This document shows, piece after piece, positions 33,935 to 50,661 of a stretch of DNA of 50,669 bases. Under the pieces are notes generated by a model. That model searched no databases, was not told where the DNA came from, and saw nothing but the letters and a program-made list of their open reading frames with translations. Position 1 is the stretch's first letter. Every line of letters begins with the position of its first letter. The position numbers and the translations under genes are program-made. Origin of the DNA: Candidatus Methanoperedens sp. (GTDB lineage: Archaea; Halobacteriota; Methanosarcinia; Methanosarcinales; Methanoperedenaceae); assembly GCA_012026795.1 (NCBI GenBank), contig VEPM01000031.1, positions 1 through 50,669 of the forward strand, given 5' to 3'.

Positions 33935-34780
33935 ATGCAAAACAAAATCGGTAAAGCTTTCGCCCCTGCCCATATATCAGGTATTTTCATAATCGATATA
34001 AAAAAAGACCCATTACTTTCAGGCTCAATGGGTTGCGGAATATGTCTTGAGGACGGCGCTGTAACACAAGTGCGCCCATCAGAGGAAACAATGATCAGGA
34101 TCAATGGAATTGTTACTGAAGCCCCCACGACGTTATCGGCAATAGGACTCCTGACCCCGGAACCTGTGCTTGTAGATACAAAACTTAACATACCTGTCGG
34201 CTCAGGCTTTGGTGCAAGCGGAGCCGGGGCATTGAGCGCAGCACTTTCACTAAATGAAGCTCTTTCCCTGGATTTGACCTTAAAAGAAGTAGCAGGAGCC
34301 GCTCATTGCGCCGAAGTGATGAACATGACAGGGCTTGGGGATGTCACAGGAATGACATTTGGCGGCATGGTATTAAGGAAAAAAGCAGGTGCGCCTTTTC
34401 TTGGGATTATTGATAAGATCCCAACGAGGGATACAAAAATATCCTGGATAGAGTTCAATGAAATCTCCACGAAATCAGTTTTATCCGATGAACTGAAAAA
34501 GAGGAACATAAACAGGGCCGGGAAATCAAGGCTCAAAGAACTCTTTAAAAAACCCACGGTTGAAAATTTCATGATACAGTCCGCAGCATTCGCAAAAGAT
34601 ATCGAACTTATGAGCCCCAAGGTAAAAGATGCTATCGAAGCTGTAACAGCCGCGGGTGGCCTTGCAAGCCAGGCAATGCTTGGAGATACTGTTTTTGCAA
34701 TAAATGATAATGGCGCACTTATGGAATTCGGGGAAGTACATGAAAGCAGGATAAGTAATGCCGGAGCCCGCCTGATATGA
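33935..34780 (+). CDS. pantoate kinase (archaeal GHMP-type)
   Basis: A GHMP-family kinase of 281 residues from ATG 33935 (MQNKIGKAFAPAHISG); a TTG start at 33926 would overlap ftsY. The GHMP glycine-serine motif is PVGSGFGASGAGALSAAL, and GLGDVTGMTFGGMV follows. Together with the next gene it makes the archaeal CoA route: pantoate is phosphorylated first, then joined to beta-alanine. The order after ftsY is seen in related archaea. The call rests on family resemblance and on the neighbour. Confidence 0.88.
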   Translation: MQNKIGKAFAPAHISGIFIIDIKKDPLLSGSMGCGICLEDGAVTQVRPSEETMIRINGIVTEAPTTLSAIGLLTPEPVLVDTKLNIPVGSGFGASGAGALSAALSLNEALSLDLTLKEVAGAAHCAEVMNMTGLGDVTGMTFGGMVLRKKAGAPFLGIIDKIPTRDTKISWIEFNEISTKSVLSDELKKRNINRAGKSRLKELFKKPTVENFMIQSAAFAKDIELMSPKVKDAIEAVTAAGGLASQAMLGDTVFAINDNGALMEFGEVHESRISNAGARLI

Positions 34781-35526
34781 TACCGAAAAGCCATCCCCGA
34801 TACAAATCCCTGATGACGCGTGAGTTGATAGTTGAAGGAGTAAGGAAAGGTATTACAAGTACCCAGGGTTTGATCGCACAGGGGCGGGGGGAAGCTTTTG
34901 ATTATTTGATAGGTGAGAAAACCACACAAAGCGCTTTGCGTGCTGAAAAAGTATCAGCAGCAAAGTTACTTCTTGCACGAAAACCTGTAATATCGGTGAA
35001 TGGAAATGTTGCGGCCCTTGCCCCTTATGAACTCATAAGGTTAAGTGAACTTGTAAATGCGCCTCTTGAGGTTAATTTATTTCACAGGACAGAAGAGAGG
35101 GTAAATAACATCATCGTATATCTTCGGTCGCTCGGTGCAAAAAAACTGGTTACAAAGAGCGATGCCCTGATCCCTGGACTTGGACACGACCGCGCAAAAG
35201 TGGATAGTGATGGCATATTAGTTGCGGATGTCGTTCTTGTCCCCCTTGAAGATGGCGACAGGTGCAAAGCACTTACGGATATGGGAAAAACCGTAATTGC
35301 CATTGACCTCAATCCGCTTTCAAGAACGGCGCAATGTGCAACGATAACGATCGTTGATAATATAATCCGCGCTGTGCCCAATATTTCAAAATTCGCGGAA
35401 GGATTGAAAGGACTGGAACAGGAAGAACTTCTGGAGATAATTCGGGAATATGATAATAAAGAGACACTATCTCTTGCTATTGAAGAGATAAACAGGAACC
35501 TGAGCTCCTTTATGGACAGGACATAA
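34777..35526 (+). CDS. 4-phosphopantoate--beta-alanine ligase
   Basis: A 249-residue archaeal phosphopantothenate synthetase. The start (HPRYKSLMTRELIVEGVRKG), QGLIAQGRGEAFDYLIGEKT, the N-V-A-A-L loop of KPVISVNGNVAALAPYELIR and the LVPLEDGDRCKAL segment are characteristic. It joins 4-phosphopantoate and beta-alanine with ATP hydrolysis to give 4'-phosphopantothenate for CoA. It overlaps pantoate kinase by four bases, which supports the two-step pathway. Confidence 0.92.
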   Translation: MIPKSHPRYKSLMTRELIVEGVRKGITSTQGLIAQGRGEAFDYLIGEKTTQSALRAEKVSAAKLLLARKPVISVNGNVAALAPYELIRLSELVNAPLEVNLFHRTEERVNNIIVYLRSLGAKKLVTKSDALIPGLGHDRAKVDSDGILVADVVLVPLEDGDRCKALTDMGKTVIAIDLNPLSRTAQCATITIVDNIIRAVPNISKFAEGLKGLEQEELLEIIREYDNKETLSLAIEEINRNLSSFMDRT

Positions 35527-35713: not shown

Positions 35714-36133
35714 ATGTTTAAAAAAATTTTCATTTCAATTATTATCTTAGGTTTTTATTATTTAATACCTGTTACTGCCAATTTGGAGCAACATGTAGAT
35801 GAATATTACGACAACTTGCATCAACTAAAAGAATTAAATTTGACCAAACAACAGCTTGAAGGTAATTTGGCAAATTTAAATAAATCCGAATTAAAAACTA
35901 ACGAATTGATAGGCAATGTTGATAATAATATTAACGTATTCAATTCTGAAATAGATACTTTTGAAAAGATATTGCAGGAAAATAAACAAAAGAAGAATGA
36001 AATTAAACGAAATATTCAAGTAATTAATATTTTAAATAATAAAGAATCTTTTTTTCTTATTGGAGCATCTTTAGGCATAATAACAGGTTTATGGATAACA
36101 TGTTTACCTCTCGTACTTCTTTGGAGGAAATAA
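35714..36133 (+). CDS. coiled-coil protein with signal peptide and C-terminal membrane helix
   Basis: Not recognised. It is a 139-residue protein with a signal or anchor helix (residues about 5-20, FISIIILGFYYLIPVTA), an extended coiled coil (about 28-108, rich in Leu/Asn/Lys/Glu heptads), and a C-terminal helix FLIGASLGIITGLWITCLPL with a basic end WRK. The coiled coil would thus be outside the cell, held at both ends. It is followed one base later by a gene of similar architecture, so the two probably pair. It opens the AT-rich tubulin-like neighbourhood. Confidence 0.65.
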   Translation: MFKKIFISIIILGFYYLIPVTANLEQHVDEYYDNLHQLKELNLTKQQLEGNLANLNKSELKTNELIGNVDNNINVFNSEIDTFEKILQENKQKKNEIKRNIQVINILNNKESFFLIGASLGIITGLWITCLPLVLLWRK

Positions 36134-36134
36134 T

Positions 36135-37034
36135 ATGCCGCCCAAAAGAAGGAAATCCAGAAAAAGTAAAAAAAATAATACTATATATTATTCAATTTAT
36201 ATCATATTTGTTTTATTATTTGCGTCTGTTTTAATTTCACAATCAAATGGAGTTGAAAAATACGGTTTTTGTGAAAAAATGGATCAACTGAATGAGAGTA
36301 AAAAAAATTATCCTGAGTTAAGTGAGCAGATACTAAAATTATGTGAAAAGGATTTAAATAAGGATGAGAAAGAACTTGGAAATTTCAGCGTTCAATTTTT
36401 AGAGAGCCTTACATTTTTTTCTGAAAATTGGAAAGAAAATGAGACTATAGCTAAACAATATGCAAAGAAAATTGATAACAGTCATGAAAGTATTAATGAA
36501 ATTGGTATAAATTCTTCCGAAATTATAAATCAAATTGAATCTATTTACAATTCAGAAATAAATAATTTGGGATATGAGTTAGAAATTCAAAATGTGTCTA
36601 TAAGTAATACAACTTACTCAGTGAAGCAACTTAAGCAGAACGAGGAAAATCTAAATACAACTTTAGAAAGGATAAATAATGAACTTGAAAAAAAGAATAA
36701 TCAAGAAAAAAATCTATCTTTAATATACAAACAAAAAATGAATGAATCGAAGAGTTTTGAATTAGATTTGATCTCTTCAACAAATGAGCATCAAAAAATT
36801 AAGAATAGTTTTATTGATAATCTATATCCATTTTTGCTTCTTGGCATTGCGTTTGGTTGTATAACAGGTTTTGTATTAAGCTCTAAATGGAAAAAAGAGA
36901 AAATCTATTGGGATGCTTATTCTTCGTCTGCAAAAGTGAGATCTCCTTTGGTATATGCAGCAGTAATAACTGTGGCACTCTTAGTTATATTGATTATATA
37001 CCTCTTCTTTTCGGGGGTTTTTGATATTTTTTAG
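36135..37034 (+). CDS. membrane protein with long extracellular coiled coil
   Basis: Not recognised. It is a 299-residue protein with a basic N terminus (PPKRRKSRKSKKN), a membrane helix (about 17-35), a long coiled coil (about 45-225), a helix FLLLGIAFGCITGFVLSS, a short loop, and a last helix (AAVITVALLVILIIYLFF). The element LGIAFGCITG echoes IGASLGIITG of the preceding protein, which suggests related membrane helices. Gene spacing (1 base) supports co-translation. The coiled coil might bridge the membrane to the surface layer or form fibres. Confidence 0.65.
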   Translation: MPPKRRKSRKSKKNNTIYYSIYIIFVLLFASVLISQSNGVEKYGFCEKMDQLNESKKNYPELSEQILKLCEKDLNKDEKELGNFSVQFLESLTFFSENWKENETIAKQYAKKIDNSHESINEIGINSSEIINQIESIYNSEINNLGYELEIQNVSISNTTYSVKQLKQNEENLNTTLERINNELEKKNNQEKNLSLIYKQKMNESKSFELDLISSTNEHQKIKNSFIDNLYPFLLLGIAFGCITGFVLSSKWKKEKIYWDAYSSSAKVRSPLVYAAVITVALLVILIIYLFFSGVFDIF

Positions 37035-37137: not shown

Positions 37138-38238
37138 TTGGAAAATGAGACGCAAATTAATAAGAAAATCTTAAGCAATGAAAAAACAGAAGTCATAGAA
37201 GGCATACAACAGCTGGGAAGTAATTTTTTAATTTTTTCCGACAAGAAAAAGGCAATGAATGAATTTCAAGGGCATATAAAAAATTCAGACAGTAGAGTGC
37301 GACAAAGTGTGGCAAATGCATTGTATCTGGCTTTTCCATATATCCCGAATAAGGAAGTGGCTTGGGATGACCTGATTCAGCTAACACGAGACAGAGATAA
37401 GGATATACGGAGGAATGCAGCCTATTCATTAGGTTTAGTCTTTTCCTATGTTCCTGATAAAAAACAAGCTTGGGAACAACTGAGAGGACTAATTAAGGAT
37501 AGTGACAGAGAAGTGTATGCAGGTTCAATAAGTGCGTTAGGTATATCTTTTCCTCATATACCTAATAAAAAACAAGCATGGGAAGACTTAATTAATCTTA
37601 TGGCGGATAATGAGAGGGATGTTCAAGAAATTGCTTCAAGCGCTTTAGGTTTAGCTTTTCCATACGTCATTGAAACGAAACAAGCATTGCAAAGCCTTAT
37701 TAGGTTGACTCCGAACAAATATGACAAATTGCATGTACGTACAATAAATGCTCTAAATTCAGTTTTTCTTTATTTTCCTGACAAAAATAAAATTTGGAAA
37801 GACTTGGTCGAATTGGCTGAGGACTTAGATAACGAGAGGAGGAGACATGCAACAAGTGCATTAGGTTTAGCATTTCCTTATGTATCCAACAGGAAAAAAT
37901 CATACGAGTACTTGATTCATTTGACTAGTAACCCAGATAGCGAACTAAATAAAGGCGCTATAAGTGCATTAGGTTCAGCTTTCCCTTATATACCTAATAA
38001 GAAAGTTGTGTGGGAAGATCTGAAGACTTTGATAAATGAAAAGGGTGGCGATTGGCGGAGTGCAGTAGATGCATTGGGAGTTGCTTTTCCTTATATTCCA
38101 GACATAAAAGCTTGGGATGATCTTGTTGTATTAATGCTTAATCCAGATTTGTCGTTGCGAGTAGGAAATGTGTTGGCTTTGGCATTTTCCTATATGCCAG
38201 ACAAGAAAAAAGGATGGGAAGATATATATATAGATTAA
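37138..38238 (+). CDS. HEAT-repeat protein, 5' part (interrupted by frameshift)
   Basis: A 366-residue reading frame made of about nine 36-37-residue helical repeats with the consensus AWxDLIxLxxDxDxxVRxxA, then ALGLAFPYIPDKK. Its start is TTG 37138 downstream of GGTGTTGAG. Repeats of this HEAT/PBS-lyase type act as protein-binding solenoids and are frequent in Methanosarcina relatives. It stops at 38238, just after a TA tract. The next frame continues the repeat register exactly, so this is the 5' part of a broken or slippage-controlled gene rather than a complete protein. Confidence 0.8.
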   Translation: MENETQINKKILSNEKTEVIEGIQQLGSNFLIFSDKKKAMNEFQGHIKNSDSRVRQSVANALYLAFPYIPNKEVAWDDLIQLTRDRDKDIRRNAAYSLGLVFSYVPDKKQAWEQLRGLIKDSDREVYAGSISALGISFPHIPNKKQAWEDLINLMADNERDVQEIASSALGLAFPYVIETKQALQSLIRLTPNKYDKLHVRTINALNSVFLYFPDKNKIWKDLVELAEDLDNERRRHATSALGLAFPYVSNRKKSYEYLIHLTSNPDSELNKGAISALGSAFPYIPNKKVVWEDLKTLINEKGGDWRSAVDALGVAFPYIPDIKAWDDLVVLMLNPDLSLRVGNVLALAFSYMPDKKKGWEDIYID

Positions 38239-39503
38239 TCCAGGTTGGGAATAGTAGCGAAGTTCGAAAGGGCGCAGCAAAGATAATAGGATCGGTTTTT
38301 TCCTACCTTCCAGATAAGGAATCTGCATATACAGAATTGAAATGGTTGAGTCAGGAAGATGGGGACAAATATGTTCGACAAAGTGCAATAAATGCATTAG
38401 GTTCAGCTTACCAGTACCTCCCTGATAAGAAGGATATATTGGACCATTTAAATAAATTAACTCAGAACTCATTGACTGAAATCCGGGAATCTGCACATTG
38501 TACTTTGGGTAAAATATATGTATTTGAAGCAACGCTGGCAGAAAATGAAGATATTTTTAAGAGACATTTAGAAAATGCATTGGGATTCTTTGAAAAATCA
38601 TCAAATGAATCATATCATGATTTCTACTTAAACCCTGCTAAATTCTGTCTACCATTTTATAATTCTTTTTACTTAATAACATTCAGAAAACAAGAAGCAG
38701 AAGCTGATGTGGAACGAAATCTTAATGAAGCGAAAATAGCTGCAGAGGGTTCAGAAAGTAAAGAAAATCTACTCGAAGCAATAGGGAACCTCAAAAAAGC
38801 AAAAAAGGAGCTGCAAAATGAGATAGTTTTCAATGAAATCAGGAATGACCTTATTAAATATAGGCAATATTGTGAACGGGCTTCAAACATTTTGGATACT
38901 GTGGAAAAAAAATTACCAATACCAGCTAAAATTATTAAGACAGGATTTAAAATTGATGAAAGGATAATTGATGAAATTCAGAGGAATACAAGAATACTTT
39001 GCAAAAAGACACAGAATCCTGACATTCGTGATTTAGGGAAAAAAGTATATCTCATGAGTCGAAATATTTTACAAATAAGAAATTATGAGGGATGTGAAAA
39101 AAGTATAGATAATTTGCAATATTTACTATCTGAAATCTGCAAGAAAATACCTAAAGAAGAAGGAGAAGAAGCATGCAAATTACTTAATAAAATAATTGAA
39201 GAGCCAATTATAGAGGATAAAATTGCTTTAATTAATATGGTTCTAAGTAAAATATCCCAAGTAGGTAAATGGAACGAATCAGAATATAAACCCAAAACAC
39301 TTTCAGATAGGATTAGATATTATCTAGAAAAAATAAATGCTCCAGCAACTATTGCATCTTTTTTTGGTTTTATCATTTTAGAATTTTTAGAGATATTTGA
39401 TATTTATCCTATTGAATACAATAAATATAAACATGTAATCAGCGTTACAGGGGCAATAACAGTTTTTATTATTGTTTTCATATTTACACGAAAGAAAAAA
39501 TGA
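38214..39503 (+). CDS. HEAT-repeat protein, 3' part with coiled coil and two C-terminal membrane helices
   Basis: A frame of 429 codons that carries on the HEAT repeats of the upstream frame for about three more units (IIGSVFSYLPDKE, ALGSAYQYLPDKKD). A helical region (about 165-225, EADVERNLNEAKIAAEG), a further helical domain and two C-terminal membrane helices (ATIASFFGFIILEFLEIF and ITVFIIVFIFTRKKK) follow. The nominal ATG at 38214 has no ribosome binding site and lies inside the upstream frame, so independent translation is doubtful. Restored, the protein would be about 790 residues: a cytoplasmic HEAT solenoid attached to the membrane. Confidence 0.75.
   Translation: MGRYIYRLIQVGNSSEVRKGAAKIIGSVFSYLPDKESAYTELKWLSQEDGDKYVRQSAINALGSAYQYLPDKKDILDHLNKLTQNSLTEIRESAHCTLGKIYVFEATLAENEDIFKRHLENALGFFEKSSNESYHDFYLNPAKFCLPFYNSFYLITFRKQEAEADVERNLNEAKIAAEGSESKENLLEAIGNLKKAKKELQNEIVFNEIRNDLIKYRQYCERASNILDTVEKKLPIPAKIIKTGFKIDERIIDEIQRNTRILCKKTQNPDIRDLGKKVYLMSRNILQIRNYEGCEKSIDNLQYLLSEICKKIPKEEGEEACKLLNKIIEEPIIEDKIALINMVLSKISQVGKWNESEYKPKTLSDRIRYYLEKINAPATIASFFGFIILEFLEIFDIYPIEYNKYKHVISVTGAITVFIIVFIFTRKKK
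38222..38232. repeat. TA dinucleotide tract at the HEAT-gene frameshift
   Basis: ATATATATATA. Removing one AT unit joins WEDIY to RLIQVGN and restores an unbroken HEAT repeat across the two frames. The tract is thus the point of the frameshift, whether from slippage in the population, decay or a consensus error. Confidence 0.75.
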
Positions 39504-39555: not shown

Positions 39556-40602
39556 TTATCTTAGCTGATTAAGTATATTTTTCAAACCTGCAATGCTCGG
39601 TGTTATCTGTCTCTTAATACTTTCAATATCAGCAGCTTCTTTTTCAGCGCCGGGTATGCTGGAAATATTAATTTTTTCTAGTTTATCAGCATTCTGTTTT
39701 AAAGTATTATAAGACCTATCCATCTGATTAATAAGCTCAGGACTTACCTTTTCTCCACCCTGTCCTATTTTATATCCTGCAATGCCGGTTATAACAGCGA
39801 GAGTAATCCCCACAACAATGGCTATGAGCATTGTGCCTTTGTTATCGTCATTCTCAGGCTTGTTATTTCGGAGATATTCAACAATTTTTGCAAATGATTT
39901 TGAAAGATCATAAGCCAATCCCACATGTCCATTCCTGCTTAATCCGGAAATATATTCTTTTTGTTCATTTAAAGCATTAATATGATTGATATTTAGATTG
40001 GAAGTATCCAAATTTGACTGAATCTTATCTAAGTAATCTTTTATATTGGAATTGGTGGATATAAAATTATATGCTCCAGCATCCTGAATTTTGTTTTTCG
40101 CATCAGTGCCGTCATAAACAGTAAAGATGGAAAGTTCAGTGTTCCTTAATCCAGGCCCTTCTCCAGTGTAATCTTTGAAATTTGGCTCTTCAATTTTAAT
40201 CGAAGGTTTTGGAATCCTTCCATAAAGAACTATTTCAAAAAAGGATTCTAAATGATCCCGTGAATTATTCCAGACAGTCCATTTATCAACACGCATTGAC
40301 TTAGTTTCACCATAAATTTTATATTGCCATTCCGGATCTTTTAACTCAGTTCTGACCTCAAGTCCGTAGCTATCCCTTGGATTTGAGGAAGAGGTTTTTA
40401 TGAAAAAAAAATGGGCTTCCAGCTTCTGACCTTCAATGAATGAATGTTTATTTGATGTTAGAAAATCCTCGATTGGATATTTCTTACCTGCGTCATCGAT
40501 ATTGATGACATAGCTCCTTGAGTTATCTATTGATAATATTTCCTGTGCATTGACTGTATTAGTAAGCAAGAGAATAATTAAAACAAATAAAATAATCTTC
40601 AT
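39556..40602 (-). CDS. exported protein with single membrane helix and cytoplasmic coiled coil
   Basis: Not recognised. It has 348 residues: a signal peptide (1-19, ILFVLIILLLTNTVNA), an ectodomain of about 230 residues, a helix GTMLIAIVVGITLAVITGIA (about 258-278), then a helical C terminus with heptads (NQMDRSYNTLKQNADKLEKI). The start overlaps the end of the large tubulin-like gene by four bases, so production is coupled to it. The cytoplasmic coiled coil is a natural candidate for binding the GTPase, or its own coiled coil, at the membrane. Confidence 0.7.
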   Translation of the reverse strand: MKIILFVLIILLLTNTVNAQEILSIDNSRSYVINIDDAGKKYPIEDFLTSNKHSFIEGQKLEAHFFFIKTSSSNPRDSYGLEVRTELKDPEWQYKIYGETKSMRVDKWTVWNNSRDHLESFFEIVLYGRIPKPSIKIEEPNFKDYTGEGPGLRNTELSIFTVYDGTDAKNKIQDAGAYNFISTNSNIKDYLDKIQSNLDTSNLNINHINALNEQKEYISGLSRNGHVGLAYDLSKSFAKIVEYLRNNKPENDDNKGTMLIAIVVGITLAVITGIAGYKIGQGGEKVSPELINQMDRSYNTLKQNADKLEKINISSIPGAEKEAADIESIKRQITPSIAGLKNILNQLR

Positions 40603-43223
40603 TCGTTTTTCTCCATTACAAGTTTTCCATTAAGCATATCAATGTTTGATGCAACATCACCCAGAGGGACAATTATTTGCTGGAGATTCTTTCCAATATC
40701 AAGAAGCTTGGGGGGGATATCATCAAGGTTTCTCCCAATGTCGATTATCAGATGGGTAACCTGTGGTGTTTCCTGATCTTTTGTAATACTTTTTATAAAG
40801 GCATCAACTCTTTGCAGCCTTGATGGTACCTCTTTATCAAGCAAGTTTCCTATTTCTGCGATTTTATCATTTACACTATAAATTCGTCTTGATGTTGTTT
40901 CAAGGAAATTCTTGATTTTGATAATCTTTGCCTTATCTACTTTATCATCTGGATCAACCTGCAATATGAAGTCAGAAAGATAAGTTTTTCCCTCATCAAA
41001 CTTTATGATATAGTTGCTGATCGAATTTTCAAGATTGTTCAAATCATTGCGCGCTTCCTGTATCTGTGACCTTATATTCGCAACCGCTACTGGAGAAAAT
41101 TGTACAGGAGAATCTATTCTTGAGAGCTTTTGTTTTAATAGAGACAATTGATTATCAAGTTCTTCAACTTTTCTTAGCATTTCTGCGACTGTTATCGGGA
41201 CTCTGCTCCATTTTGCTTCTCTGTCCACAAGTTCATAATTTTTCCAGAATTTTATTACGCCTGCCACGGATGCCTTGATATCTCCCCACGGCATCGGGAC
41301 TCCAGTAATATCACTGAATACCTGAAAGTCTCCCAGAAATAGGGAATGATGAAGGAAATACTCCTCATCTGTGGAATTTTCATAGTTTTGTTTCATCTTA
41401 TCAAGGTCTGTTAACCTTGAAGGATATCCCGGTGCAGGAGCCCATGGATGCAGTCCGATCATCAAAGTATAAATATTTACACTGAATTTATCAAGGGGAA
41501 CATTCAGAGGGAATAATTGCGCATGTCTTGCAATGGTATCTCTTAAAAGTTTTTCCGCATTTTCTTTTCCGATTTTTTCTTCATCGATATTAGATTTATC
41601 AGAACTCAAAATAGCGGCTACATACCCTATTTTAGATTCATCATCAATTATACCCCCGGCTCTCTGGTCAATTTTCATGAATTCTTTTTCAAGCAATATG
41701 TTAAGAACATTCGGATGGATTTGTTCTTTATTCATCTTATGCTGGTAATTAAGAAGGGGGGAAGTAGCGATTTGAAGTTCCGTAAAGGGTGTGTGAACAT
41801 GATTATCGTACTCCTCATATCGTCCCAGTTCTTCCATGACTTTCTTGAAACTTGAACTTAGCTCAGGTCTGTCCACATTCAGATGCGTTTCTCTACCCCT
41901 GAAGCTGTTAATTTCCTGGTCGTTTAATCTTATCTGGTACATATGGATATTGGAAGGTGGAGTGACTATCTGCTGGTAAATTTTCTCTTTATATGCCTTA
42001 AGGTTCTTTAATTCGGTTTCAAGATTACCCCTCTTCAGTTCAAGCTCCTTTAGATCATTAAATAAATTATTCTTATAGAATGAAATTTCCTGCATTTGCT
42101 GCTTGGCCATATCAAGTTTTCCTCTTGTGTCCCTTATGGCTTTCTTCCTGGAGAACCAGCCCTGGTTCATTTCCATTTTATTAACTTCGTTCTCAAGCAT
42201 TTCAATATTTACTTTTGAATTTTCCAGATCGTTTTCTAAAGTATTGATCTTATCCCTGGTAGAATTGATATCGGCCTGAAAATTCACCAGCTTTGAATTA
42301 ATGTCCTTGATCTTATCTTCGGTCTCGAACAATCTTAATATTTTATTTGCCGGGAATTCAATAAGATGGTAGCCTATGGTCGAGAATGAACTCGTTAGAG
42401 GTGCAACAGCGGTCATCAGGTCGTTAAGGTCGAACCATTTATCTTCTGTATTCTTCTTTTTCCCGGGCACGAATCCAAGATCAATAAAGAACCTGAGTGC
42501 AATTTCCCTGAGAGAGTCATCATCTTTTGCTCCTGATACTTTTCTCCCGGTCAGTATGAACAGTTTAAAAGGATTAATGTATTTGTCCTTTCTTTCTTTC
42601 TGGGACATAATGAAATGCAGCTCTTTCAAGGTAGCCATTGAATTTCCAATAGTTATTTTCTCTTCATCCATCGAAGGAAGAATTCCAAATCCCAGTATTA
42701 TCGGATCTTTATAATTTGTCTGAAGCCAATTCTTGATATCTATTGATAGATCCGTGATTATGCTTGAACCGGTTCCTCCTCCTAATGAACTTACAATGAT
42801 AACAACAAATCCGTTCTTATCTGTTTTTGAAACAAGATCCTGTGCGGCTTTGTTTATGATCTCCCCGATCCCATCCCTGTGTATTGAATACAGGGCTTTA
42901 CCGAACACCCGCCGCTGTCCTGCACCGATACCACCAACGAGTGCCATATATTTTTCAGGAAACCATGGATTCTTTGCTGTAAAAATATTTCCTGAAGGCA
43001 TTGGAAGAGATTTTTTGTATATAGTGGATTGCAATGTTTTAATATTACGGCAAAGGCCGGAAAGGTCAGAATCATTACTGTCTATAAAAATAAAAGCCTC
43101 ATTTTTTGGAATTCCTCCGTGTGTATCCAGGTAATTGGCCATCATATCAACTATCCTGCAGCCCTGCCCACCAAGACCGATCATGATCCGGTTTACGGTT
43201 TCCTCTGAAAAAACAGTATCCAT
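40599..43223 (-). CDS. large tubulin/FtsZ-superfamily GTPase with coiled-coil insertion
   Basis: An 874-residue member of the tubulin-like superfamily. The N-terminal nucleotide domain shows GLGGQGCRIVD (T1 loop, 16-26), GGIGAGQRRVFGKAL (T3-like, about 97-111) and SSLGGGTGSS (T4 signature, 145-154). After about residue 300 comes a strong coiled coil to about 418, then a long C-terminal region with a second coiled coil (about 690-780). This size and design differ from FtsZ, CetZ and TubZ and best fit the 'tubulin-like' Tubulin_2/FtsZl-type families predicted to remodel membranes. No T7 synergy loop (NxDxxD) is obvious. It lies between a 4-TM protein gene (7-base gap) and a signal-peptide protein gene (4-base overlap). 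Confidence 0.85.
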   Translation of the reverse strand: MDTVFSEETVNRIMIGLGGQGCRIVDMMANYLDTHGGIPKNEAFIFIDSNDSDLSGLCRNIKTLQSTIYKKSLPMPSGNIFTAKNPWFPEKYMALVGGIGAGQRRVFGKALYSIHRDGIGEIINKAAQDLVSKTDKNGFVVIIVSSLGGGTGSSIITDLSIDIKNWLQTNYKDPIILGFGILPSMDEEKITIGNSMATLKELHFIMSQKERKDKYINPFKLFILTGRKVSGAKDDDSLREIALRFFIDLGFVPGKKKNTEDKWFDLNDLMTAVAPLTSSFSTIGYHLIEFPANKILRLFETEDKIKDINSKLVNFQADINSTRDKINTLENDLENSKVNIEMLENEVNKMEMNQGWFSRKKAIRDTRGKLDMAKQQMQEISFYKNNLFNDLKELELKRGNLETELKNLKAYKEKIYQQIVTPPSNIHMYQIRLNDQEINSFRGRETHLNVDRPELSSSFKKVMEELGRYEEYDNHVHTPFTELQIATSPLLNYQHKMNKEQIHPNVLNILLEKEFMKIDQRAGGIIDDESKIGYVAAILSSDKSNIDEEKIGKENAEKLLRDTIARHAQLFPLNVPLDKFSVNIYTLMIGLHPWAPAPGYPSRLTDLDKMKQNYENSTDEEYFLHHSLFLGDFQVFSDITGVPMPWGDIKASVAGVIKFWKNYELVDREAKWSRVPITVAEMLRKVEELDNQLSLLKQKLSRIDSPVQFSPVAVANIRSQIQEARNDLNNLENSISNYIIKFDEGKTYLSDFILQVDPDDKVDKAKIIKIKNFLETTSRRIYSVNDKIAEIGNLLDKEVPSRLQRVDAFIKSITKDQETPQVTHLIIDIGRNLDDIPPKLLDIGKNLQQIIVPLGDVASNIDMLNGKLVMEKNE

Positions 43224-43230
43224 TAATTGC

Positions 43231-43800
43231 TCATCTCCTGGTCATTTCTATCCTATTTTTCTCTGAGATTTTTGCAGCATCAACAAGTGAATCTTTCACA
43301 TCTTTATCCCTGGATTTCATATCCCTCCCGATTTCTTCAGATTCATTCTTTAATCGATCCAGATTGTGTTGCTGTTTAATTAATTCAATTGAAATTGCAT
43401 TCGGAAGGTTTCTTTCAACATAAATCCAGGACAAAATAAGGCATATCGTAGTAAGCGATCCAACTATTATGAAATATATCAGATTACTCTGGATATCGGC
43501 TTCAAATACATATACTTTAAATTCATTGAGCAAATATCCAAGACCACCAAGAATGAACATAAGTACACTGATTATCAATAATATTGTGAATATATTTTTC
43601 AATGAATCAGGGTTTGGCTTTCCCATTGGTTTTCTTTTACTATCCCAGAAATAATACGCACTTAAAATTGAAATAACTATTCCGAGCAATAGAATTCCAG
43701 AAAAGCCAATAAGACCAAGGGTGTTGTAATAATATAATAGACTCGAAAGAATTAATAACAAAATCCCTGCAATTAACCAAAAAATTAATATCTCAATCAT
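43231..43800 (-). CDS. four-TM membrane protein with C-terminal coiled coil
   Basis: Not recognised. It is a 189-residue protein with helices at about 3-20, 29-47, 70-93 and 106-126, then a charged, helical tail (IELIKQQHNLDRLKNESEEI and on to KNRIEMTRR) that should be in the cytoplasm. It starts the operon of the large tubulin-like GTPase, 7 bases upstream of it, and could be its membrane receptor. Upstream (43839-43856) is a perfect palindrome at promoter distance. Confidence 0.68.
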   Translation of the reverse strand: MIEILIFWLIAGILLLILSSLLYYYNTLGLIGFSGILLLGIVISILSAYYFWDSKRKPMGKPNPDSLKNIFTILLIISVLMFILGGLGYLLNEFKVYVFEADIQSNLIYFIIVGSLTTICLILSWIYVERNLPNAISIELIKQQHNLDRLKNESEEIGRDMKSRDKDVKDSLVDAAKISEKNRIEMTRR

Positions 43801-45091: not shown

Positions 45092-45982
45092 ATGCAAGAA
45101 ATAATGAATATCCTGAAAAGAACATATGGGTTGTTTTTTCCAGAGGATAAAAAAATAGCATTCAAAAAGCTTCAAAATCTAAATAATAGAATTCTTATCA
45201 TTACTCTTGAAAAAGAAAAACAATTTTTTGAGAACGAAGTGGAAAAAATTCGAAATAATATATATGTGGGCATGCCAATAAAAGAAATTTTTGCCTCTAT
45301 AGATCAATTATCCTCGGAAGTTGAAAGATACATCATGGTCCAGAACGATGATGACTATATACGGATAATTCAACATCTTGTGGTTAAAAATATTAAAACT
45401 GAGAACGAAATAGAAGAGATATGTGATATAAAGGATAGAAGCATTGTCTTTAAATATTTTAAATCCGGTGAACATGAAATATTTGTTCATATATATGAAA
45501 ATATTAATGAAAAAATTAAATCCATAGAACAAATTCTTAAAACTATAGAAAATATAACCTCAAGGAAAGAAGATTTTGGAGAATTAAAAATTATCTGGAA
45601 TAATATTATTGATGATGAAAAAAATAAATTATATCAAGTTAAGATCAGAATGGATGATCCAGAAAAACCCGAAATGGAAAGGATCAATGCATTGGATAAT
45701 GAGATATCAGGCTTAAACAATAGATTTATCTCCCTTGAGAAATATGCTAAACACTACTTGAGTGAAGAATCACTTGATCTTTTTACAAGCGAAATAAAAG
45801 AATATATGCCGTCAAGGGCAGATATTACTTATTATGATATTCTTAATGGAATGGCGGATTGCATTGTTACTGAATTAAAATATTGTATTGGCAGAGATAA
45901 TGAAGGAAAATCAATTGAAATTAAAAAAAGAATGGCAAAGCTGATATATGGCAGGCTCAAGAAAGGAATGTTTGTGATCTGA
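45092..45982 (+). CDS. helical/coiled-coil protein, 296 aa
   Basis: Not recognised. It is a soluble, predominantly helical protein of 296 residues with no signal peptide, rich in Glu/Lys/Ile, and with likely coiled-coil stretches (about 20-60 and 125-215). It starts after CTGAGGAC and ends one base before the 419-residue tubulin-like gene, so it is probably co-translated with it. A partner that organises or regulates the filament would fit the context. Confidence 0.65.
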   Translation: MQEIMNILKRTYGLFFPEDKKIAFKKLQNLNNRILIITLEKEKQFFENEVEKIRNNIYVGMPIKEIFASIDQLSSEVERYIMVQNDDDYIRIIQHLVVKNIKTENEIEEICDIKDRSIVFKYFKSGEHEIFVHIYENINEKIKSIEQILKTIENITSRKEDFGELKIIWNNIIDDEKNKLYQVKIRMDDPEKPEMERINALDNEISGLNNRFISLEKYAKHYLSEESLDLFTSEIKEYMPSRADITYYDILNGMADCIVTELKYCIGRDNEGKSIEIKKRMAKLIYGRLKKGMFVI

Positions 45983-45983
45983 A

Positions 45984-47243
45984 ATGAACATGTTGGTAAT
46001 AGGAATCGGGGAATGTGGAAGGAATATCACCATACAGATGTATTACCAACTCAGTAGTATGCGATACAAATATCTAATTAAAAATTTTGATTTTTTCGTA
46101 ACTGATACTGAGGATAGTTTAAGAATAATCCAAGATATAAAGCGCAAGGGCATCCCCACCGAAGCAATAAATCCTGGAAAATTCGATGAAAAAATTAAAC
46201 CTTTAAATCTTTTTGCGCTTTCTTCAAAATTACTATCAGGAGTTGGAGGAGCATGGATAACTTCTTCAGAGATCGCCAAGAAATTCTTCCAACAAAAAGA
46301 AGGTGAAAATAAACAATATTTGGACTTTCTTAATTTACCAATAAAATATTGTGAATGTTTCAATATCTTTAATAGTGCAGGAGGAGGAACAGGAAGCGGA
46401 GCAGGGCCAGTTTTTCTGGAATATTTGTATAAGAACGCAGAAGACTCATCACGTAAACTCTTCACTGCGACCATAGTACTTCCTTTCAAAAAAGAAGGAG
46501 GGAACTGGAGGGATATGAATTCTGCAATCAATATATCCAGATACAGCAGACTTTGCGATGGAATTATTATTGCAGACAATGAATTTATGCAAGATAAATT
46601 AAAATCTGATATAAAAACTGTCCAGAATAGTATAAATGAACTTTTAGGAAATATCTGGATGTGGATGAATGCTTGCTCCAGTCCACAGTTAATCATAACT
46701 CCTAAACGCTGGGAAGGATCTGACATTAAAAGAAACTTCCGATTTGGAAACAACGGTTCGCTAATTGTGCCTTGCTTCAGGGAAGAACCTGTGGAAAAAT
46801 TAAGAAGAATAAGTTTGAAATGGATAGTCCTTCGGACAATAAGAGAGAATTGCGCGGCGAAATGTTTGCCTGATACATCAAAACGAATTTTAATATTAGC
46901 CTCTCTACCAGATAAAGAAGTTTGTCCTGTATCAGAATCCGATGTGGCTGATTATATCAGCAGCGAATTGTTCAGGGGCAAAGGGTCAGCGATAGATGTT
47001 ATTTTTATTCGTGGGAAGGCTATGCAGAATGTGAGCGTAACGGCATTGCTTATTTCTCCTGAAATTCCAAGGCTTAAGGAACTCAATGAAACTTTCAGGG
47101 CTTATATGGAAAATCCCAGTACATTAGAAAAAGATATGGTTGGTCAGATCCAACAAAATTCCCAAGAAGATCTTATGAGTTATTACAGGATTGAATATGA
47201 GAATTTTCAGAAATACCTGTATGATCTTAAAAGTCTTGGTTAA
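45984..47243 (+). CDS. divergent tubulin/FtsZ-superfamily GTPase, 419 aa
   Basis: A 419-residue protein with the tubulin-superfamily nucleotide pocket: GIGECGRNI (T1, 7-15), SGVGGAWITSSEIA (T3-like, 85-98), NSAGGGTGSGAGP (T4 signature, 130-142) and IIADNEFM, where Asn199 fits the guanine contact. The T7 catalytic loop is not recognisable (EGSDIKR at the expected place), so GTP hydrolysis upon polymerisation may be weak or absent. It lies two bases after the helical protein gene and converges with a second tubulin-like gene, overlapping it by four bases. It is distinct in sequence from canonical FtsZ. Confidence 0.82.
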   Translation: MNMLVIGIGECGRNITIQMYYQLSSMRYKYLIKNFDFFVTDTEDSLRIIQDIKRKGIPTEAINPGKFDEKIKPLNLFALSSKLLSGVGGAWITSSEIAKKFFQQKEGENKQYLDFLNLPIKYCECFNIFNSAGGGTGSGAGPVFLEYLYKNAEDSSRKLFTATIVLPFKKEGGNWRDMNSAINISRYSRLCDGIIIADNEFMQDKLKSDIKTVQNSINELLGNIWMWMNACSSPQLIITPKRWEGSDIKRNFRFGNNGSLIVPCFREEPVEKLRRISLKWIVLRTIRENCAAKCLPDTSKRILILASLPDKEVCPVSESDVADYISSELFRGKGSAIDVIFIRGKAMQNVSVTALLISPEIPRLKELNETFRAYMENPSTLEKDMVGQIQQNSQEDLMSYYRIEYENFQKYLYDLKSLG

Positions 47244-48460
47244 AGTTCCTGATATGTAGCCATCCCTTTTTCTGTTTCGTATTTTCGGGCAGTTTCCTCG
47301 ATTTCTAACAGTCTGTTCAGTTCATCAGGCAGGAATGTGAATAGGACAGTCAAAGATACAAGGTCTCTTTTTGTTCTTGATATTCCAAGTATTCTCCATC
47401 CTTCCCTGCTGTACTGTTCCATATATTTCTTTATATTTGAGGTATCCAGATATTCCTCTTTTTGTAGATAATAATTCGGTACCCTTAGATTCACAAGATT
47501 TTTCCTGGCATTTGCAAGTTCTGATTTTTCAATTTCCATACTCAGGCTTTCGATAGCTTCATCTAGCATTTCCTTAGGTTCTATACTCTTGTATCCTTTT
47601 GGTAATTTTGAAATTATGGGCATATAGTAAAACAGAGTTCTCATCTGCCTGCTGGCTCTTCCTATCACAGCAAATCCTGGATTATTTTTTCCGTTTGATT
47701 GAAAAGATGTAGTAGATACCATATCCATGAAATCTATGTCCTTTAATTCTCTTCCGAAATTTAGCTTTGAAAGGTCAATTTTCTCGATCATTAATCCGGC
47801 TATCAGATCTGTAAGGCAGCGAGCAATATATTTATTGTATTTAGGAAAAAAAGATTCTATGCTTCTTTTATGCGAAAGTTTTTCATTGTCAACAAGGATA
47901 AAACTATTCACATGTTCGGAAAGTTTTTTTATGCATCTCCATGAATTCCAGGAGAGATGCATGCCTTCTTTGCCTTCTCCACTTGCAGGGATTACTGCAA
48001 TAACAATAATGGGGATATTATACAGTTCTTTTATGGCTCTGGCAACAAAAGGGGCAGTACCGCTTCCAGTACCTCCTCCTGTTCCGACACAAAGAAGCGC
48101 AAAAGGGATCCCTGGTTTATTTTCGTTCTTACTTTTAGGAGTGGTCTTTTCTATACGATTTTTGAGAACTTCTTTTAATTTTTCATAATTCGGCTTTATG
48201 ATCTTTTCTGCATTTTCAGGATAATTTCCAAACCCACCTGTTACGTGTTCTCCAAAACCCGTTGTTTTGCCTTCAATAAATCCTTTTTCCTTGGAAATAC
48301 CTAACCAATACTGGTTTCCAATATTCTTAAGCTTCTTTAGGTCATTGACATCTGAGTTTATAACAATAGGTTCCGCTATCTGGAACATATTTTTTTCTTC
48401 AAATATCGCATCCAGTATTGCACTGCCACACTGCCCTATTCCAATAAATGACCTAGCCAT
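47240..48460 (-). CDS. tubulin/FtsZ-superfamily GTPase with tubulin-like loops, 406 aa
   Basis: A 406-residue protein with a complete nucleotide pocket: GIGQCGSAILDA (T1, 7-18), TTGFGEHVTGGFGNYPENAE (T3, 66-85) and VGTGGGTGSGTAPF (T4, 125-138). The T5-like IPASGEGKEG follows, then LVDNEKL (Asn192). The T7-like DIDFMD (241-246) keeps both acidic residues of NxDFxD. The GQCG in T1 is also that of eukaryotic tubulin. It is therefore the most tubulin-like of the three paralogues and is likely to polymerise. The start follows CAGGTGA; a promoter lies 31-40 bases upstream. Confidence 0.85.
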   Translation of the reverse strand: MARSFIGIGQCGSAILDAIFEEKNMFQIAEPIVINSDVNDLKKLKNIGNQYWLGISKEKGFIEGKTTGFGEHVTGGFGNYPENAEKIIKPNYEKLKEVLKNRIEKTTPKSKNENKPGIPFALLCVGTGGGTGSGTAPFVARAIKELYNIPIIVIAVIPASGEGKEGMHLSWNSWRCIKKLSEHVNSFILVDNEKLSHKRSIESFFPKYNKYIARCLTDLIAGLMIEKIDLSKLNFGRELKDIDFMDMVSTTSFQSNGKNNPGFAVIGRASRQMRTLFYYMPIISKLPKGYKSIEPKEMLDEAIESLSMEIEKSELANARKNLVNLRVPNYYLQKEEYLDTSNIKKYMEQYSREGWRILGISRTKRDLVSLTVLFTFLPDELNRLLEIEETARKYETEKGMATYQEL

Positions 48461-48570: not shown

Positions 48571-50661
48571 ATGAGTAATATACTTCGAAGGATTTTTTTC
48601 TTTATTAGTTTATTAATAGTCGCCTCAATGCTAATATTTCCTCCCGCTAGTTCGTCCAATGAAATAAATTCATATATAAATTATACATTCATACCGGAAA
48701 GTTCTATGGTAAGTATAGAGGAAGGGAAAAATCTGAGATTTCTTGTCAAACCCTCATTTCCTCGCAATAATTCAGTATTATATGTGTGGTTACTGGATAC
48801 AAAATTAAGTAAATCAGAAAATGATAGTTGGGCTTCAGAATATGAATATAATCCGGATTTTACTGAAGGAGATAGTAATAAAGAGTTAGAATTACGGATA
48901 TATGAAGGCAATAAGGTTATTTCTAGAAAATGGATTATCGATGTGATAAATGTGAATCGACCACCGGTAATTGATCAATATGACCCCAGCGGAATGATAC
49001 TGCAAATAAAAGAAGGAGAATCTTTGCCATTCTCTATACACGCTTCAGACCCTGACCTTGGAGAGATAAATAGACTTACATATTCGTGGACTCTAAATGG
49101 GAATTTTAAATCTAATATGGAATTTTTTGAATTTAAGCCCGCTCCAGAGTCGGAATATTATGAAAAGGGTATGAATATAATCGAGGTGATAGTGAGTGAC
49201 GGAAAAACAGACATTTCCTGGAAATGGTTTATCAAAGTGGAAGGCGTTAATAGACCTCCAAAAATTACAAACATCACCTCTGATAATAACTGGGAAGTGG
49301 AGGAGGGTGAAAATATCACTTTTTCGATAACTGCATCTGATCCTAATGAGAGCGATAATCTTAGTTATACTTGGAGAATAAGTGAAATTAATCAGAAATG
49401 TGGGAATGTCAGTTGTACATATTATCCAAAATATCATGACGAAGGGAAAAAAACTTTATATGTGACCGTAAGCGATGGTAGTTTGAGCGATTCTAAGGAA
49501 CGTATTTTTAAAGTGATAGATAAAAATGGTCCGCCCATTATCAATAATTTAAGTCCTAAAGCTGAACTAAGATTTTTATTCACATGGGATAATGTATATA
49601 AAAATGATAATAATAGCCTTATTAATTATCTTAAGGATAATCTTAGTATTCAATGGGTAGAAAATGCAGAATTCATCAAAAATAATAATACAATCCGCGT
49701 CTTTAAGAAGAAAGAATCAGTAAACATCACCCTCGATAAAGAAAAAGCAAACCTAATAATTGATGATGGAAAAATCTACAATTTGAAAGTAAAAAACGAA
49801 AATAATACTTTTAATATATATGAAAGATATTTAAATTTATCCAAATCCAATGTTATATTCGAAAATTTTTCCGTGAATGCTAGTGATCCTGAAGGGGATA
49901 ACCTCACTTATAAATGGGAATCATTAAGTAAAAATGATTCCAATAGAACTTATTTTAATTTCTATCCAGATTATAATTGTTGTGAGAGTAAAAAAGAAAT
50001 CATAAGTTTAAAAGTGAATGATGGCAATAATTCTATTTTTGAAACTTGGCATATTGTGTTAGAACAAACGACATCCAGTGCAGAAATCTTATTTTTAGAA
50101 TCTATCATATTAATAGCTGCGACAATTTATATAGGGACACCTTATGCCAGAAGCTTGTTATCTATGATATCTGGCTTTTCCTTGGAAACAATTGACAATA
50201 TTTTGAAATCTATATTGTTTTTACCTCTTGCACTTGCAGCAATACTCTGGATTCATTATGGTTTTCCATTCGGAATAATAGCTTTATTTTTTTCATGGAT
50301 TTTCTTCAATGAAGCCATAAGGAAATTAATAGTAATAAAATATTTTCGAAATCATTTTAAATGGGAAGATATTCCAAACAGTAATGAATTTCGAGCTTTT
50401 CTAAAAAAAAAATTGAAATTTGAATGGACAATTGAAGAATTAAAAAAAGAAGATGAAAATACTCTGAGTATATCCAAGGACAACAAATCCATTAAACTCA
50501 AACTTGAAGATGATATGTCAAATGCAAATCTTATACTTAATAATAAAAAAATCGGTGAATTTTATGTGAATATTGATGAATATAACAAACCAAATCTATT
50601 TTGGAAGCCGGATATAATTTATGAACTAATTATCTCTAAAATAATAGTAGCTGTCTATTAA
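48571..50661 (+). CDS. surface protein with cadherin/PKD-like repeats, three membrane helices and a duplicated domain
   Basis: A 696-residue protein from ATG 48571 (GGTGG 8 bases upstream; ATG 48556 adds five residues). Numbered from 48556, a signal helix (about 11-30) precedes four beta-sandwich repeats (VNRPPVID...PFSIHASDPD...LTYSWTLNG; VNRPPKIT...FSITASDPNESDNLSYTWR; FSVNASDPEGDNLTYKWE). Three C-terminal helices (about 509-527, 550-567, 570-588) lead to a cytoplasmic tail (about 595-701). Residues 342-422, between repeats three and four, align with 601-682: F-W-[DE]...LK..L...W...ENT...ANLI...KI. The same domain thus occurs on both predicted sides of the membrane. It is divergent from the 406-aa tubulin-like gene. 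Function unknown. Confidence 0.78.
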   Translation: MSNILRRIFFFISLLIVASMLIFPPASSSNEINSYINYTFIPESSMVSIEEGKNLRFLVKPSFPRNNSVLYVWLLDTKLSKSENDSWASEYEYNPDFTEGDSNKELELRIYEGNKVISRKWIIDVINVNRPPVIDQYDPSGMILQIKEGESLPFSIHASDPDLGEINRLTYSWTLNGNFKSNMEFFEFKPAPESEYYEKGMNIIEVIVSDGKTDISWKWFIKVEGVNRPPKITNITSDNNWEVEEGENITFSITASDPNESDNLSYTWRISEINQKCGNVSCTYYPKYHDEGKKTLYVTVSDGSLSDSKERIFKVIDKNGPPIINNLSPKAELRFLFTWDNVYKNDNNSLINYLKDNLSIQWVENAEFIKNNNTIRVFKKKESVNITLDKEKANLIIDDGKIYNLKVKNENNTFNIYERYLNLSKSNVIFENFSVNASDPEGDNLTYKWESLSKNDSNRTYFNFYPDYNCCESKKEIISLKVNDGNNSIFETWHIVLEQTTSSAEILFLESIILIAATIYIGTPYARSLLSMISGFSLETIDNILKSILFLPLALAAILWIHYGFPFGIIALFFSWIFFNEAIRKLIVIKYFRNHFKWEDIPNSNEFRAFLKKKLKFEWTIEELKKEDENTLSISKDNKSIKLKLEDDMSNANLILNNKKIGEFYVNIDEYNKPNLFWKPDIIYELIISKIIVAVY

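Follow-up and report, generated by a model that had tools for sequence, protein, structure and literature searches.

A divergent FtsZl1-type tubulin homologue with a conserved coiled-coil hairpin and an overlapping membrane-protein gene in Candidatus Methanoperedens

What might a tubulin-like GTPase with long coiled coils do in an archaeal cell? This question is raised by a locus in a Candidatus Methanoperedens sp. genome (assembly GCA_012026795.1). The stretch of DNA that was analysed, called the window below, comprises 50,669 nucleotides of contig VEPM01000031.1, and a first-pass annotation of its letters had placed at 40599-43223 an 874-residue tubulin-like GTPase with two coiled coils after the nucleotide domain. 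The open reading frame (ORF) is real and lies on the minus strand, the plus strand of 40599-43223 being full of stops. The protein is referred to here as TubA; the names TubA, TubB and TubC were coined in this analysis for the three tubulin homologues of the locus. TubA is laid out as a tubulin/FtsZ-type GTPase domain, a coiled-coil hairpin, a conserved globular region (residues 421-682) and a helical tail. Judged by its sequence, it belongs to FtsZl1 taken broadly, within which it stands as a subfamily of its own, and we see about an even chance that it forms a GTP-dependent polymer under the membrane, bearing lateral arms and tied to the envelope.

The conclusion that TubA carries a tubulin-fold GTPase domain is supported by family profiles and by structural comparison. 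The Tubulin_2 family (PF13809) matched residues 13-299 with an E-value of 1.8e-24 (87.1 bits; cut-off 27), and the Tubulin family (PF00091) matched residues 13-202 with an E-value of 8.9e-11 (42.9 bits; cut-off 33); TubA gave no match to a family of a non-tubulin nucleotide fold. An AlphaFold2 (AF2) model of TubA was built from 3 sequences (mean predicted local distance difference test score, pLDDT, 50.1; predicted template modelling score 0.33). When this model was compared by VIA-align with tubulin, CetZ and FtsZ chains, Z scores of ~16 were obtained over ~200 residues, with a root-mean-square deviation of ~3-3.8 and 13-24% identity; these alignments cover mainly residues 9-537, and the C-domain is hence barely probed by them. 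A Foldseek search with the full model returned no match at E <= 0.001, and its best rows, from 1.2e-3 on, were mostly FtsZ, tubulin and TubZ, with one dynein motor among them. No match of TubA to the NCBIfam FtsZ equivalog TIGR00065 was found at E <= 1; TubC and TubB scored 63.8 and 26.9 bits, both below the cut-off of 295.2.

Conservation was assessed in an alignment of 17 TubA homologues (alignment A6). The invariant residues of the GTPase domain include the GGGTGS loop (148-153), ILPS and KEL. In FtsZ the T7 loop has two acidic residues, and in FtsZ and tubulin this loop acts on the nucleotide of the neighbouring subunit. Residues 262-269 of TubA form a putative T7 loop, in which D265 and D268 may be the counterparts of the two acidic FtsZ residues, and a further conserved motif, F-x-[ST]-[ILM]-G-Y...FP, comes after it. 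By hhalign, residues 262-269 pair with their TubC counterpart within one whole-domain alignment (E 1e-7 in one comparison, 2e-8 in another). The direct alignment of TubA with FtsZ stops ahead of this segment, and the T7 assignment was therefore made by way of TubC and of known FtsZ motifs.

The coiled coil that had been annotated at about residues 300-418 was borne out. AF2 predicted helices here and not a globular fold: two long helices, 292-352 and 360-420, are separated by a short turn, with pLDDT mostly 73-88, and the model is best read as an antiparallel hairpin. The hairpin is kept across the 17 homologues and the glycine at its tip, Gly355, is invariant, so the hairpin is more than an accident of one gene. 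The distance from Pro291 to Gly355 is 64 residues in 14 of the 17 homologues (66, 66 and 67 in the others), and that from Gly355 to Pro422 is 69 residues in 14, 67 in two and 60 in one. The hairpin is variable in sequence and almost fixed in length, the pattern expected of a spacer. Furthermore, a heptad test, in which the 3.5-residue repeat of leucine-type residues is expressed as a z score against shuffles, detected the repeat of the first arm in 17/17 homologues (median z 7.45) and that of the second in 16/17 (z 3.72). Three control segments from the GTPase domain scored below zero; since a stretch of the C-domain (530-587) also scored 3.47, the test is supportive and not specific. Matches of TubA to PADLOC, SMC and Rad50 entries lay on its coiled coils and were discounted as effects of composition.

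The second, C-terminal coiled coil of the annotation was upheld in part. Helices are predicted in the tail (pLDDT ~45-71), and residues 764-812 show the repeat (z 4.02; 15/17 homologues), but the signal is weak over residues 683-750 (z 1.17; 5/17). Between hairpin and tail, residues 561-640 of the C-domain are about as conserved as the GTPase domain, with a mean top-residue frequency of 0.82, and hold another cluster of invariant residues. The AF2 model of residues 421-682 is mostly helical, but its pLDDT is mostly 25-50. A reading of this region as a standard FtsZ C-terminal domain, prompted by motif likeness seen by eye, found no support (hhalign E 0.17 and 0.4 against FtsZ), and alignments of the C-domain with TubC (E 0.26 and 0.055) and with canonical FtsZl1 (E 0.08 and 0.15) were likewise not significant.

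Relatives of TubA are concentrated in few lineages. At E <= 0.001, a search with the single sequence gave matches in 4 of the 34 family genomes and in 11 of the 237 class genomes, and besides the window the class set holds two real near full-length relatives: one in 'ANME-2 cluster archaeon isolate B4-08' (ANME, anaerobic methanotrophic archaea; genome G053, locus L093; 70% over residues 1-869) and one in Candidatus Methanoperedens sp. isolate SR-VP (G019, L094; 36% over residues 9-687), with Tubulin_2 scores of 89.5 and 67.4 bits, respectively. A three-sequence TubA profile matched 130 of 392 genomes drawn from the phylum at E <= 0.001, the weaker matches falling mostly in the GTPase region or the coiled coils; 35 genomes passed E < 1e-60, of which 32 belong to family f11 and 2 to family f21, the last being the window genome itself. 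Near full-length relatives were counted in 32 of the 51 f11 genomes (13 of the 15 high-quality ones, 9 of 14 genera), 2 f21 genomes, 1 ANME-2 genome and 2 Methanoperedens genomes, and none was found in the other Halobacteriota families sampled in the class set and the phylum draw. No TubA relative was found among plasmids and IMG/VR viral contigs; beyond Halobacteriota the search was limited to these and to pattern-based scans of genome contigs, which gave the B4-08 and SR-VP relatives. The 3.6-Mb window genome (G000) holds a large set of tubulin paralogues, with 12 PF00091 matches, all over the curated cut-off.

The two families were placed by their methane genes. In f11, mer was absent from 19/19 tested genomes and McrA present in 18/19 (none in G464), in many cases as fragments; because a comparison of ANME genomes gives mer as missing from ANME-1 and Syntrophoarchaeum (PMC9012536), f11 is read as probable ANME-1. 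In f21, each genome has four McrA-family genes, and mer was not found over the cut-off in 2/2 genomes (G307 has a sub-threshold partial match), in line with the four Acr copies of Syntrophoarchaeum (PMC10322722); f21 would therefore be Syntrophoarchaeum-like. A third family, f4, may by guess be ANME-2a/b. The spread of the TubA clade, mainly across methane- and short-alkane-oxidising archaea, suggests an uncharacterised cytoskeleton tied to the envelope.

The association of TubA with membrane proteins is regular. The gene of a 348-residue partner shares 4 bases with the TubA gene in the window. Of the 17 TubA loci opened, SR-VP is the only one in which the gene after TubA does not belong to the partner family; 14 of the other 16 show an ATGA overlap. 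The predicted cytoplasmic tail of the partner is helical, at low confidence, and a structure model of this protein (two sequences, mean pLDDT 38.8) was unusable. The suggestion of the first-pass annotation that arms or filaments are attached to the flanking membrane proteins gains indirect support from this overlap and adjacency, from the low-confidence helical tail, and from the four hydrophobic segments and charged tail of the 189-residue protein encoded at 43231. Homology of the latter to a protein with three transmembrane (TM) segments encoded upstream of TubA in f11 and f21 was considered on account of an alike layout and rejected for want of sequence support (hhalign E 0.061).

Eight genes are common to the window and B4-08 in order and orientation, encoding the proteins of 139, 299 and 348 residues, TubA, the proteins of 189 and 296 residues, TubB and TubC (Table 1). 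No match in the B4-08 locus was found for a pair of HEAT-repeat genes at 37138-39503 or for a gene of 386 codons at 43896; the HEAT-repeat genes lie next to each other within the low-GC island described below, and the product of the second has two hydrophobic segments near its C-terminus. Homology of TubB and TubC extends over 342 columns (E 2.2e-14), and TubB has a GGGTGSG loop; a T7-like motif is not visible in its alignment, and TubB is perhaps a catalytically inactive tubulin. TubC shares the locus with TubA in the window, in B4-08 and in 8 of 14 f11/f21 loci. It also occurs without TubA, the 21 of 237 class genomes with TubC being the window genome, B4-08, two others (G003 and G009) and all 17 f4 genomes drawn. 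TubC adjoins a membrane protein of ~320-370 residues, mostly followed by one of ~650-850 residues, in G003, G009 and B4-08, in 6 of the 7 f4 loci opened and in several f11/f21 loci; in the window this pair is not at TubC, and the 701-residue PKD/Ig protein occupies the place where relatives have it.

Table 1. Features of the TubA locus, in window coordinates.
Feature	Coordinates	Strand	Basis
TubA, 874-residue FtsZl1/Tubulin_2 protein	40599..43223	-	ORF; PF13809 E 1.8e-24; clade 99/95 inside Tubulin_2 branch
Nucleotide (GTPase) domain, TubA 13-295	42339..43187	-	PF13809, PF00091; structural match Z ~16 over ~200 residues
T4 phosphate loop GGGTGS, TubA 148-153	42765..42782	-	Invariant 17/17, alignment A6
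Putative T7 catalytic loop K-W-[FL]-D-[LF]-N-D-L, TubA 262-269	42417..42440	-	D265, N267, D268 in 17/17
Coiled-coil hairpin, TubA 292-420, tip Gly355	41964..42350	-	AF2 helices; near-constant length in 17 homologues; heptad test
Conserved C-terminal globular region, TubA 421-682 (YTLMIGLxPW, HHSLFxG)	41178..41963	-	Alignment A6, conservation; without significant profile match
Variable helical tail, TubA 683-874, partly coiled coil	40602..41177	-	AF2 helices 672-704, 711-755, 764-812; heptad test
348-residue partner: N-terminal hydrophobic segment, ectodomain, TM 258-276, helical cytoplasmic tail	39556..40602	-	TM scan; family alignment A7 of 14; ATGA overlap
189-residue protein, four hydrophobic segments and charged helical-looking C-terminal tail	43231..43800	-	Homologues in L028 (41%), L029 (33.7%)
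TubC, 406-residue second tubulin-superfamily protein	47240..48460	-	PF00091 1.3e-21; homologues in 21/237 class genomes, E <= 1e-20
TubB, 419-residue third tubulin-superfamily protein	45984..47243	+	PF00091 4e-16; 57% to B4-08; no T7 motif by eye
296-residue soluble protein	45092..45982	+	No family match; conserved in B4-08 (40%)
139-residue protein, hydrophobic segments at both ends	35714..36133	+	Conserved in B4-08 (35.9%)
299-residue membrane protein	36135..37034	+	B4-08 39%; weakly in G003, G009
701-residue PKD/Ig-type membrane protein, contig end	48556..50661	+	PF17963, PF18911

Three side observations were made on these loci. A domain of ~90 residues (FSWD[DE][IV]PGND...RLK[ED][FV]L...) was found by tblastn once in the 701-residue protein of the window (49576-49827) and in four neighbouring proteins of SR-VP (L094 8406-8612, 10852-11109, 12330-12566 and 13109-13375), among them the TubA homologue, which has it in its C-terminal part, and a P-loop membrane protein, which has it midway; by eye only, another copy was noticed around residues 600-690 of the 701-residue protein. 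It looks like an in-frame mobile domain. At one end of L094 (positions 1-2700) a chemoreceptor-like gene of 766 codons is overlapped by long open frames, a trait of GC-rich DNA that sets this end apart from the rest, and the SR-VP contig might be chimeric, its locus to be used with caution. Lastly, a gene with an RRXRR domain (PF14239, E 3e-39) lies amid the module genes of G003 (L040 2559-3419), while G009 lacks it at this position; it is probably a recent insertion.

A mechanism that would join these features can be outlined. TubA would polymerise with GTP beneath the cytoplasmic membrane and may hydrolyse the nucleotide. The hairpin would leave the body of TubA just past the strand after the T7 loop, about where tubulin has its lateral-contact M-loop, the S7-H9 stretch of tubulin nomenclature, and the arm may thus replace the M-loop. 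With ~60 residues per helix it would stick out sideways by ~9 nm and link or space adjacent filaments. The helical tail of TubA, and perhaps the arms as well, would bind the cytoplasmic helical tail of the 348-residue partner, whose ectodomain would extend outside the cell, and the multi-pass 189-residue protein may be a second anchor. TubC would act as a companion tubulin and TubB, seemingly without a catalytic loop, as a modulator. The whole set would connect a filament inside the cell with the envelope of anaerobic archaea that oxidise methane and alkanes. A wider version is advanced tentatively and is, on balance, somewhat unlikely: a lineage-bound cytoskeleton of anaerobic methane and alkane oxidisers, made of an arm tubulin and its overlapping partner, in most cases joined by a second tubulin and by Ig-type surface proteins, whose membrane-spanning filaments would shape the envelope, a sheath or cell contacts in syntrophic consortia. 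It would be ancestral to ANME-1 and the Syntrophoarchaeum-like archaea, and transfer would account for its scattered presence in ANME-2 and Methanoperedens.

Several results weigh against a filament of this kind. The canonical FtsZ T7 loop has an asparagine where TubA has Trp263, and the placement of the arm at the M-loop depends on the motif alignment. Since the C-domain aligned with FtsZ, TubC and canonical FtsZl1 at E-values of 0.055-0.4, a standard polymer interface is unsupported. Only in the hairpin and in parts of the GTPase core does the AF2 model rise above low confidence, and the coiled-coil signal of the tail in the heptad test is only partial. Furthermore, 6 of the 14 f11/f21 loci, some of them truncated by the end of a contig, have no TubC, and the SR-VP locus has no 348-residue partner, so neither is strictly required.

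The main rival to a polymer is a non-polymerising, GTP-regulated membrane scaffold or switch, in which the tubulin fold binds nucleotide and the coiled coils dimerise and gather membrane proteins. Dimerisation is frequent among long coiled coils, the C-domain of TubA has no detectable similarity to the C-domains of FtsZ or tubulin, and non-polymerisation of FtsZl1 was named as a possibility by the authors who described it in 2010 (PMC2875224). However, the T7-like loop, which in FtsZ and tubulin acts on the nucleotide of the neighbouring subunit, is invariant in the TubA homologues, and two further tubulin homologues are encoded at the locus; we regard a scaffold as rather unlikely. The relationship of TubA to FtsZ, the ectodomain of the 348-residue partner and the presence of TubC in 17/17 f4 genomes of the draw, which suggests a housekeeping role there, would also fit a division or septation apparatus, in which an extra tubulin ring would build or split the envelope that separates the cells of a chain or packet. 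Yet further tubulin-superfamily genes are present in the window genome (12 PF00091 matches in all), several of them much closer to the profile, and TubA is dispensable for division, being absent from 19 of 51 f11 genomes and most Methanoperedens; this reading is clearly improbable.

Two further readings were weighed. At ~35.5 kb the GC content drops from 0.36-0.48 upstream to 0.30-0.38 in the island that holds the module, and the upstream gene (34777-35526) is present in 26 of the 31 genomes examined from the genus. Apart from the window genome, none of these 26 showed a module gene beside it within the flanks fetched, of up to 1.5 kb. These two findings suggest that the island was acquired, loss elsewhere being the alternative; a tRNA insertion site was considered and set aside, there being no tRNA in the window. 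The same low-GC stretch and lack of module genes beside the upstream gene, with the sporadic occurrence of TubA in Methanoperedens, could point to a defence or conflict island moving between archaea. This is highly improbable in our view: no credible PADLOC match was obtained, the TubA matches there being coiled-coil stretches, family scans of 10 window proteins recognised no nuclease, toxin or sensor domains, and retention in 13 of 15 high-quality f11 genomes is steady for defence. Divergent tubulins such as TubZ and PhuZ serve plasmids and phages, which would speak for a TubZ-type DNA-segregation system here, and tubulin-like proteins are also encoded by Borg elements of Methanoperedens (PMC11208441, PMC12660748). 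Against it, no DNA-binding adaptor family was matched in the 10 proteins scanned, the partners of TubA are membrane proteins, and the upstream genes are chromosomal and common to congeners, so that segregation has very little chance of being right.

If TubA does polymerise, as the filament reading has it, it would add a membrane-coupled and possibly multi-tubulin cytoskeleton to anaerobic methane oxidisers, whose cell biology is little known. The filament-forming capacity of FtsZl1 was left open by the paper that named it, in which T6-H7 was not confidently identifiable (PMC2875224), and the T7-like loop, compact and near-fixed arm and overlapping partner make the TubA subfamily tractable for this question. 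The literature searches made returned no account of the TubA module, and the words FtsZ, tubulin and cytoskelet- are absent from the main text of the ANME comparison (PMC9012536).

The layout of a GTPase domain followed by a coiled coil has been known since 2010 as FtsZl1/Tubulin_2. The annotation had held that classical FtsZ and tubulins have no such insertion; the arrangement is nevertheless not without precedent, because in the FtsZl1 proteins described earlier the GTPase domain is joined to an extended coiled coil and then to a C-domain that is mostly helical (Makarova and Koonin 2010; PMC2875224). As far as the searches show, what is new is the subfamily, its fixed-length arm, the T7-like loop, the overlapping partner, the multi-tubulin locus and the distribution. 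TubA shares with FtsZl1 the N-terminal FtsZ-like GTPase domain with its GGGTG loop, the coiled coil and the C-terminal region after it, the nearby membrane-protein genes and the occurrence beside ordinary FtsZ (PMC2875224). It differs from FtsZl1 as described in its short hairpin of fixed length (~120 residues), its extra helical tail and its recognisable T7-like loop, and its locus differs in the two additional tubulins and the overlapping 348-residue partner. A vWA protein, a protein kinase, a P-loop GTPase and an OmpA protein are frequent but not universal operon partners of FtsZl1 (PMC2875224); none was matched among the 10 window proteins at E <= 1, which does not by itself bar FtsZl1 membership.

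In a tree of GTPase domains, the TubA clade (99/95) lies on a 25-row branch (100/99) that also holds f17 proteins and canonical FtsZl1 from Methanoperedens and other sources; FtsZ, TubB and TubC lie apart, several joins involving long branches that must be read with care. The canonical FtsZl1 proteins compared, of 1057-1092 residues, come from other Methanoperedens genomes (L034-L037). Like TubA they have a Tubulin_2 GTPase domain (hhalign E 1.8e-13) and a neighbour with two terminal hydrophobic segments; unlike TubA they have a longer coiled region, and they show no significant similarity to it outside the GTPase domain. Their loci (G002, G005, G006, G027) have next a P-loop membrane protein with 4 to 5 TM segments (DO-GTPase2-like in G005, L034), and no such protein was noted at the loci of the window and B4-08; in SR-VP a P-loop membrane protein comes after TubA. 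In f17 (L173 4395-7486, L174 6935-9934), a shorter FtsZl1-like protein of 721-757 residues adjoins a protein of 273-274 residues with two hydrophobic segments, a gene pairing of the same kind as TubA and its partner. One subfamily of Borg tubulin-like proteins is annotated as Tubulin_2 (PMC9879509); the likeness to TubA lies in this annotation and in the host genus, and a point of difference is that the window adjoins chromosomal genes. FtsZ, CetZ and tubulin share the fold of the nucleotide domain with TubA (Z ~16), whereas the arms inserted after the T7 region and the structural-alignment identity of 13-24% set TubA apart from all three.

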